Origin: Sinomicrobium sp.
GTDB taxonomy: Bacteria > Bacteroidota > Bacteroidia > Flavobacteriales > Flavobacteriaceae
Assembly: GCA_029266035.1 (NCBI GenBank)
Contig: JAJUFH010000031.1
Location: 1-35,007, forward strand
Length of the DNA: 35,007 nucleotides
Direction of reading: 5' to 3'
How positions within the stretch are numbered: position 1 is the first letter of the stretch; each line of letters begins with the position of its first letter. The notes under the pieces are model-generated. The model saw only the letters and a program-made list of their open reading frames with translations. It had not been told where the DNA came from and ran no database searches. The position numbers and the translations under genes are program-made. Of this stretch, positions 34,198 to 35,007 are shown piece by piece.

Positions 34198-34270
34198 CGC
34201 GGGATAGAGCAGTAGGTAGCTCGTCGGGCTCATAACCCGAAGGTCACAGGTTCGAGTCCTGTTCCCGCTA
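34198..34270 (+). tRNA. tRNA-Met (CAT), initiator type
   Basis: A complete cloverleaf of 73 nt: acceptor CGCGGGA with TCCCGCT, D-arm GAGC/GCTC, anticodon stem TCGGG/CCCGA around CTCATAA, T-arm ACAGG/CCTGT with TTCGAGT. The three G:C pairs at the base of the anticodon stem and the lack of a Watson-Crick pair at 1:72 (C against T) are hallmarks of the initiator tRNA. CCA is not encoded: the bases after the discriminator A are CTA. The 3' half overlaps the end of the convergent recombinase gene. Confidence 0.95.
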
Positions 34271-34310
34271 CTAAACAGGACAAATGAAATTTATTTTCGT
34301 TTGTCCTGTT
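34198..34310. other. Probable integration junction (att site) at the tRNA-Met 3' end
   Basis: A recombinase gene running convergently into a tRNA gene and finishing inside it is the usual picture of an element integrated at that tRNA. The crossover point cannot be placed, because only one junction is in the window. The partner repeat should be a copy of part of the tRNA 3' end at the far end of the element. Confidence 0.45.
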
Positions 34311-35007
34311 CTTATTTTGGGGTAATACGTTGTTTATCTGAAAGATATAGTTTGCGATTACGTTCATTCGGGCGGTTCGATAAGTTTTTCCGTCAAACAC
34401 CAATTTTTCAGGGAATATCGAACCAATTATACCTCTCCTTGTGTTGATTTCGCCCTCACGGTACATTTTGGGAATATTTTCTATGTACTTTAAAGCCTTG
34501 TCCAAAGACTTATCTATATTGATTTTCTGGGTATCAGAACCGTCCTTGCTCAACTGTTCTTCCAGATTTTCAATTCGTTTCTTACATTCATCTTTGATTT
34601 CGAGATATTCCTTATCATCAATAATTTCAGATAGCAGTTTGTTGCGTGCTACTGATAACCTTGCATTCAGTTTATCTATTTCCTGTGCAATCTGTTTCTT
34701 TTCGTCAAATGGATTATTCACGAATTTCTTGTAGTTGTCCAACAATAGTTTTTTCACTATTTGAGCAGTACCGTTTAATGCAAAATGACGCATACTCTTT
34801 TCAAAAATATCGTTGGCTAATTCAGCTTTTTGACGGAAGCCACAGGAAGAAACGCAATGATAGTAATAATAACGGCTTGTTCTTCCTTTGGAAGCACTAC
34901 CTGTTAGGTTGCGACCACATTTGGGACATACTAAGAAACCACGGAGGGGCAGGTTCTCATCTGAAAGTATTTTGGTATTAGGACGTTCTACCCTTTTATT
35001 TCCGTCC
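34230..35007 (-). CDS. Large serine recombinase (integrase), C-terminal part, cut by window edge
   Basis: 258 C-terminal residues are visible, with the frame open to the window edge. The N-terminal resolvase domain with the catalytic serine lies outside. The visible part starts in the recombinase zinc-ribbon domain: LRGFLVCPKCGRNLTG, then YYYYHC and SSCG, giving CxxC-x20-CxxxC at residues 27-55. A long coiled-coil region follows (about 90-165, Lys/Glu/Leu-rich), typical of large serine integrases. The last 13 residues (AGTGLEPVTFGL) are encoded by the tRNA-Met gene on the opposite strand, and the TGA stop overlaps the anticodon. Such enzymes integrate mobile elements without needing host factors. 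An internal Met at 34793 is not the start, because the zinc ribbon precedes it. Confidence 0.88.
   Translation of the reverse strand, partial: DGNKRVERPNTKILSDENLPLRGFLVCPKCGRNLTGSASKGRTSRYYYYHCVSSCGFRQKAELANDIFEKSMRHFALNGTAQIVKKLLLDNYKKFVNNPFDEKKQIAQEIDKLNARLSVARNKLLSEIIDDKEYLEIKDECKKRIENLEEQLSKDGSDTQKINIDKSLDKALKYIENIPKMYREGEINTRRGIIGSIFPEKLVFDGKTYRTARMNVIANYIFQINNVLPQNKNRTNENKFHLSCLVAGTGLEPVTFGL
34274..34317. terminator. Long hairpin between tRNA-Met and recombinase; likely tRNA terminator
   Basis: AACAGGACAAA (34274-34284) pairs perfectly with TTTGTCCTGTT (34300-34310). Inner bases extend the stem to 16 bp with one G-T and a loop of about 5 nt. CTTATTTT follows on the plus strand, fitting termination of the tRNA transcript. 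The whole hairpin is also coding for the recombinase. Confidence 0.7.

Follow-up and report, generated by a model that had tools for sequence, protein, structure and literature searches.

Can a recombinase gene take its last codons from the tRNA gene beside which it lies? The question is raised by one end of the window, which is the whole of contig C41 (35,007 bases) from a genome of 3.05 Mb. An integration junction occupies the final 0.8 kb of the contig. The features of the junction and its neighbourhood are:

32698..34077, minus strand: host gene 5' of the tRNA, presumably encoding a sodium:alanine symporter-like protein; the same neighbour is found in the empty-site genome G002
34198-34271, plus strand: host initiator tRNA-Met gene, the insertion target and the host side of attL
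34231-34233, plus strand: anticodon CAT, with two bases in common with the recombinase stop codon
34230..34271, minus strand: host-encoded recombinase tail, 13 codons (VAGTGLEPVTFGL) and TGA, all within the tRNA gene
34267..34274, plus strand: recombination core GCTAC/TAA, common to attL and the far end (GGCTACTAA)
34274..34310, plus strand: element-borne terminator-like hairpin directly 3' of the tRNA, with arms at 34274-34289 and 34295-34310, then T-rich
34272..35006, minus strand: C-terminal half of a large serine recombinase, as encoded by the element; its N-terminal part is past the contig end
34848..34949, minus strand: recombinase zinc ribbon PF13408, residues 20-53 of the fragment

The recombinase frame (34230-35006, minus strand, 258 aa) is open at the contig end and reads antisense through the 3' half of the tRNA-Met gene. 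Its last 13 residues and stop correspond exactly to the final 42 bases of that gene, and the TGA (34230-34232) overlaps the anticodon by two bases. The first-pass annotation had described this arrangement correctly, including the dependence of the recombinase C-terminus on the tRNA: the last 13 codons lie wholly inside the tRNA gene. The anticodon stem reads GGG/CCC in the sequence, and positions 1 and 72 do not form a Watson-Crick pair; these are marks of initiator tRNAs.

The same annotation interpreted the arrangement as an integration junction, a view to be abandoned if there were neither a far end nor an empty site in related strains. Both exist. In G002 and G005, which belong to the same genus, tRNA-fMet is followed by 34 bp containing a host terminator-like hairpin, then by tRNA-Val(gac). 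G002 shares the upstream gene of the window, and the GCTAC of the core is also present at its empty site. In the window's genome, tRNA-Val is at position 13262 of contig C38, and two far-end sites of the element family lie upstream of it, at 6665-6691 (far end 6665-6694) and 8812-8838. Parts of an Avrilella dinanensis element inserted at tRNA-fMet match C38:2-2934 and C38:2931-6694 with 97.2% and 99.5% identity, and C41:34171-35007 is 93.9% identical to the tRNA end of that element. The window therefore holds the left junction, and the right end is C38:6694; attL and attR are on two separate contigs. The C41-C38 link is drawn from sequence comparison, namely the Avrilella similarity and the fMet/Val synteny. 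By comparison with Avrilella, about 9 kb of the window's element is unassembled, including the N-terminal part of the recombinase. PF07508 is absent from the window's assembly at E <= 1, and the rest of the recombinase was not recovered.

A second copy of the tRNA 3' end had been anticipated at the far boundary. Instead, the far end shares only GGCTAC(TAA) with the tRNA end, and a search for the tRNA 3' half across the window's own genome returns only the two fMet genes. A short core with no tRNA 3'-half repeat is what is expected of a serine enzyme. Where both ends of an element could be compared (six elements), the shared core is 6-9 bp and the recombinase gene abuts the core in every case.

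Assignment to the large serine recombinases, also proposed in the first-pass annotation, is well founded. A profile search finds the zinc ribbon PF13408 in the window fragment (E 4.8e-6). Three full-length relatives have PF00239 (Resolvase), PF07508 (Recombinase) and PF13408, the zinc ribbon of L093 being below the cut-off. One relative, L044, matches the TP901-1 and A118 integrase structures by sequence, and the YIRVST motif of a relative aligns to YTRVST of TP901-1 integrase; we take the serine in this motif to be catalytic. The structure model of L044 represents the integrated form, with a tRNA tail; with a pTM of 0.35, it is read for local features alone. After the zinc ribbon, where a coiled coil is expected, it has two long helices, 362-388 and 394-416. 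Residues 494-521, around the join, are modelled as disordered beyond the last helix (pLDDT < 50), which fits an appended tail and is silent on the role of the tail. The domains, the serine motif, the helices and the short core together identify these proteins as large serine recombinases. Plasmid records contain no recombinase match at E <= 1e-30, and phage records contain only two matches, 28% and 27% identical. One match to an attP-like 18-mer among the viral_contigs (L163) was taken as chance; L163 has no recombinase match.

The association with tRNA genes extends to the whole family. A scan of genome_contigs identified 27 loci. One of these (L065) ends before the recombinase C-terminus and is excluded; of the remaining 26, 25 have an antisense tRNA gene there, so the arrangement is not due to chance. 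The exception is L047 (Chryseobacterium sp. BGARF1), in which 11 bases matching the end of tRNA-fMet (L047:10737-10747) are found beside the recombinase; these are taken for a displaced fragment. Similarly, no whole tRNA gene adjoins the element at L135:1516-1530, only 15 bases that match a tRNA 3' end. In L047 and L135 the tRNA was perhaps split later by another element.

In the loci covered, 17 kinds of tRNA serve as targets: initiator and elongator Met, Glu, Gln, Leu (3 anticodons), Arg (4), Lys, Asn, Val, Phe, Pro and Ser. The survey of tRNA neighbours took in 97 locus names, some places being present twice; ten names without a C-terminal match (L025, L027, L039, L065, L124, L127 and L129-L132) were dropped before counting. 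Fifteen of the 17 kinds occur among recombinases at least 50% identical to either of two queries; the recombinases at Asn and Val are only distantly related, with 38% and 22% identity. At least 23 target changes are counted among the 46 labelled rows of a 58-row tree, which comes from a quick search and has long branches; only its tight clades are relied on. The attP-like core of an Arg(acg)-targeting relative is GGTCAC, resembling the end of that kind of tRNA. The first-pass emphasis on an initiator tRNA thus stands as far as the target in the window is concerned. A special role for the initiator does not stand, given the range of tRNAs used by relatives; the second fMet gene of the same genome, on C31, is likewise occupied.

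The clearest case of changing targets is a single element found in four genera. L044 (Gelidibacter) is at fMet, L045 (Kaistella) at elongator Met and L061 (Flavobacterium) at Glu. Together with L047 (Chryseobacterium), they have DNA that is 99.8-99.98% identical over 5.1-8.5 kb, and their recombinases are identical over the compared residues 1-505. Identity stops at the last bases of the tRNA. The tRNA therefore belongs to the host, and the element joins it at the extreme 3' end.

Two explanations in which the recombinase did not place the element can be judged at this point. One holds that the recombinase is a fixed chromosomal gene which came to lie beside a tRNA by chance or rearrangement. 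It would account for the lack of a far tRNA 3'-half repeat other than the second fMet gene, and G001 and G003, of the same genus, do have other DNA (4.7 and 0.8 kb) separating fMet from Val. However, it is refuted by the far end and by the empty sites of G002 and G005, and it leaves unexplained why one element occurs at several tRNAs across genera and why 25 of the 26 loci adjoin the end of a tRNA gene; we regard it as scarcely credible. The other holds that a tyrosine integrase or some other mechanism placed the element and that the serine recombinase is a passenger. Such an origin is suggested by the targets themselves, since tRNA 3' ends are classic targets of tyrosine integrases (PMC4383910, in the part available). 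It is very improbable nonetheless: the recombinase gene abuts the core in all six elements compared and the shared core is short, and the ORFs of at least 120 aa in the closest element, inspected by eye, include an insertion-sequence transposase and no second recognisable site-specific recombinase. Integration by the serine recombinase itself is the reading followed below.

At the integrated end, the tRNA supplies the tail of the recombinase. Junctions with identical 60-base downstream stretches were merged, and loci without a tRNA within 130 bases were omitted, leaving 55 distinct junctions. The new tail contains a strict G-x-E/K-P motif (GLEP, GIEP, GFEP or GFKP) in 46 of these. An RIEL variant is found in four (L013, L014, L038 and L064); of the other five, L019, L020 and L022 use another frame and L062 and L162 are broken before the tRNA. 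The motif comes from the antisense of the universal T arm; since the spacing between T arm and 3' end is fixed, the reading frame through it hardly ever differs. Ends such as GLEPVTFGL and GIEPLFPE are in-frame antisense-tRNA sequence and not random annotation errors. The tRNA-derived tail is usually at least 11 residues long; if it is translated, a carrier should contain the peptide ...LVAGTGLEPVTFGL.

A different tail is encoded at the far end. Read directly on far-end DNA, with no joining of sequences, the recombinase frame continues from the core into a peptide of 27-30 residues followed by a stop in all six far ends; the peptide is VAETEQISKHFLEDLERLTSLSAEVTAMEY or near it. The C38 far end encodes VAETEQISKHFLEDLERLNSLSHEATT, and other copies stop after 23-28 residues. 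The conserved core of the tail is V-A-x-T-E-Q-I-S-K-H-F-L-E-D-L-E-R-L. This native tail is known from far ends and tandem-type junctions, not from an excised circle. The far-end pattern occurs in 11 of the 30 genomes searched, all of the main clade plus G005; far ends of the carriers at tRNA-Gln (L106 and L178), Ser and Leu(taa) were not found.

Codons were compared over all pairs of 10 distinct far-end sequences, pairs which are not independent of each other. Three regions can be distinguished. In codons 1-9, next to the core, 7 of 27 columns vary and the differences are mostly non-synonymous (16 synonymous to 54 non-synonymous); here it may be the attachment site, and not the protein, that is kept. 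In codons 10-18 (HFLEDLERL) there are 139 synonymous versus 52 non-synonymous differences in the recombinase frame (123:24 when the decayed C29 copy is omitted), and the other two frames give 38:174 and 5:209. Codons past 18 are unconstrained (77:232). Five pairs set against random substitution give P values from below 0.0001 to 0.035. Judging from these codon counts, the core of the tail is under protein-level constraint.

Natural sequences also exist in which a recombinase and a tail of the same kind are contiguous and in frame, with no tRNA adjoining. They are found in G005 (L093:7564-7815) and G243 (L124), and further copies occur in L125, L141, L145, L148, L150, L157, L159, L164, L166 and L171. 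Several are decayed: stops interrupt the recombinase part in L125 and the tail in L150, and the tail of L166 has diverged. L164 (G597) encodes an intact 548-aa protein with all three domains and the native tail; relatives of this type with a tail share about 50% identity with the query. If elements were arranged in tandem, the recombinase nearest the tRNA would bear the tRNA tail and its neighbour the native tail. This prediction agrees with what is found in three genomes, where a second recombinase is present at a tRNA in the same orientation: G597 and G613 (both Arg acg) and G757 (Leu caa). The two recombinases are about 77, 122 and 98 kb apart, respectively. G696 has no tRNA and no second recombinase in the stretches L166, L167 and L177. 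The search for partners covered these four genomes and left out seven others that have contiguous tails (G243, G247, G605, G750, G754, G699 and G708).

The tRNA gene, in turn, receives a terminator-like hairpin. A hairpin starts 0-7 bases after the tRNA in all 55 distinct junctions, and it is followed by a T-run in 53. Folding energies range from -13.9 to -24.4 kcal/mol, compared with a shuffled mean of -6.5; only 1.3% of 1,100 shuffles reach -13.9. The hairpin in the window has an energy of -21.8 kcal/mol (z -7.1). Changes on both sides are seen at all 14 stem pairs among the 47 sequences that share one register; the percentage of paired cells is inflated, since these 47 of the 55 were selected for pairing in that register. 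On the opposite strand, the hairpin bases of the window encode NRTNENKFHLSC of the recombinase. The hairpin is inside the coding sequence, and its codons are therefore read twice. It takes the place that the host terminator-like hairpin has in the empty site. Of the seven far ends folded, six also have a hairpin with a T-run behind them (there is none behind the BGARF1 far end), as expected of the displaced host terminator. The element hairpin would terminate transcription of the tRNA.

These observations can be combined into one explanation, comprising a join at the tRNA 3' end inside the recombinase gene, a tail swap, an embedded hairpin and a proposed role for the swap; as a whole we consider it highly probable. 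The recombinase gene is convergent with the tRNA gene, and the join falls at the last bases of the tRNA (GCTAC/TAA), so that the tRNA stays host sequence. Crossover probably takes place within the A73-C74 dinucleotide of the tRNA. An enzyme made from the excised or tandem form would end in the far-end tail of about 23-30 residues, and the excised circle would carry an uninterrupted recombinase frame ending ...VAETEQISKHFLEDLERL... In the integrated form, the enzyme ends in residues read antisense from whichever tRNA was entered. Given the protein-level constraint on the core of the tail, we infer that the tail may matter for the integration reaction. Its loss would alter the resident enzyme, perhaps making it less able to re-integrate or biasing it towards excision; the integration event itself would set the state of the enzyme. 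A stronger version treats the tRNA gene as an interchangeable last exon: the tail would be needed to insert, the swapped form would only excise or could not reinsert, and the hairpin would end the tRNA. We put this version at somewhat below an even chance. If true, direction would be set by cutting the enzyme's own gene, and many cellular tRNA genes would be usable.

The role of the swap is also the point at which other explanations compete. The swap may be a by-product, the att site overlapping the gene end for compactness and both tails being equally functional. Integrated forms have intact frames in recently moved elements, so the tRNA-tailed enzyme is presumably functional; the L044 model is disordered around the join, and the last codons of the hidden tail are unconserved. 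Set against these points are the mainly synonymous changes in codons 10-18 and the persistence of the same kind of tail in relatives only about 50% identical (L164), which would be unneeded were the tail dispensable. A mere by-product is thus a real possibility, if a rather doubtful one. Alternatively, far-end conservation might concern DNA only, as an attP arm bound by the recombinase in which the frame is open by chance. This would suit the nine codons adjoining the core, which vary little and mostly non-synonymously. The next nine do not follow it, since synonymous changes predominate there in the recombinase frame alone among the three, and natural junctions connect the tail frame to recombinase sequence; conservation of DNA alone is accordingly an unlikely explanation. 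The reading preferred here remains a tail swap with a role in the reaction.

Partial precedents can be found in other systems, and the comparisons below refer to the portions of the cited papers that were available. Myxococcus phage Mx8 targets tRNA-Asp. As in the present family, its attP is inside the integrase gene and C-terminal residues are replaced upon integration. Mx8 is, however, one phage with a recombinase of the unrelated tyrosine family, whereas the proteins described here have serine recombinase domains; they are therefore Mx8-like in the change of the C-terminus and outside the family of Mx8. In Mx8 Int, a 112-residue end is replaced by 13 residues, and the integrated form is reported to be less active (PMC4701971, PMC4383910). 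Streptococcal ICEs at rumA use a single serine integrase whose excised and integrated forms have different C-termini (PMC4701971). They resemble the present elements in having a large serine recombinase with the att site within its own gene, but their target is a protein gene, the end of which is exchanged. The text of PMC4701971 that was covered mentions no tRNA, antisense tRNA reading or embedded terminator for them.

Genomic islands with tyrosine integrases (Islander, PMC4383910) share the tRNA targets and the tandem arrays. They differ in the type of enzyme; moreover, an island carries tRNA sequence that makes the gene whole again, and its far end is recognisable by a tRNA fragment. The covered part of the same paper states that serine integrases are not known at tRNA genes. 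Mycobacteriophages with integration-dependent immunity (PMC8092301) also have attP in a gene whose product is trimmed at the C-terminus. In these, however, it is the repressor that is altered, the tails are degradation tags, and the integrases in the clusters described are tyrosine integrases. Mobilizable elements of Bacteroidota are another point of likeness, as several members of the present family carry MobA or MobB (found in L047, L093 and the window genome's own C31). The tRNA-targeting Bacteroidetes entries NBU1, NBU2, MTnPi4 and Tn6031 in the available part of PMC5704250 have tyrosine integrases, unlike those described here. ICEs of Chryseobacterium and Elizabethkingia at tRNA-Glu (PMC8694125, PMC10973501, as far as available) were set aside; the integrase in PMC10973501 is a tyrosine recombinase. 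The word 'tRNA' is absent from the main text of a survey of serine recombinases (PMC10083194). No serine integrase at tRNA genes was found in the literature searched, to the extent that its texts were available and with subscription texts and supplements aside. The combination of tRNA targeting, tail swapping and an embedded terminator in serine recombinases thus appears to be new.

The family offers natural pairs of recombinase forms, with and without the conserved tail, and the direction control of serine integrases can therefore be tested with two natural proteins. Specificity for tRNA ends could be useful for integration tools. The family is also a carrier of accessory genes in Bacteroidota, including metal efflux, defence and resistance genes. 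The cargo on C38 includes a P-type ATPase, RteC and a RES-domain protein, and the Avrilella copy additionally has an RND efflux pump and its adaptor. The L047 element of Chryseobacterium sp. BGARF1 carries Tet(X), FloR, CatB and MobA/MobB.

Several other traces of the family are present in the same genome. At the other tRNA-fMet, C31:1213-13520 (L007) holds a further element of the family; both of its ends are present, and its recombinase is decayed. It carries a type I restriction-modification operon, with SIR2-like and HerA-like genes between HsdS and HsdR, as well as a MobA-like gene. C38:6692-8838 (L122) is a 2.1-kb segment with no recombinase, flanked by far-end sites, which encodes a DUF6577 protein and has an AbiEii-type toxin gene; it is perhaps a passenger element moved in trans. 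Another recombinase-free insert, with an AbiEii-like gene recognised by eye, is found between C29:382164-382289 and tRNA-Arg (L009:6240-7979). It is bounded by tRNA-Arg(cct) and by a far-end site that still joins the recombinase end to the tail frame. At C29:97551-97695 (L003), elongator tRNA-Met is followed by a remnant of a recombinase end, which makes it another tRNA gene scarred by the family in a 3-Mb genome. Elsewhere in the window, a 2380-codon open frame on the minus strand (22583-29725) is by far the longest.
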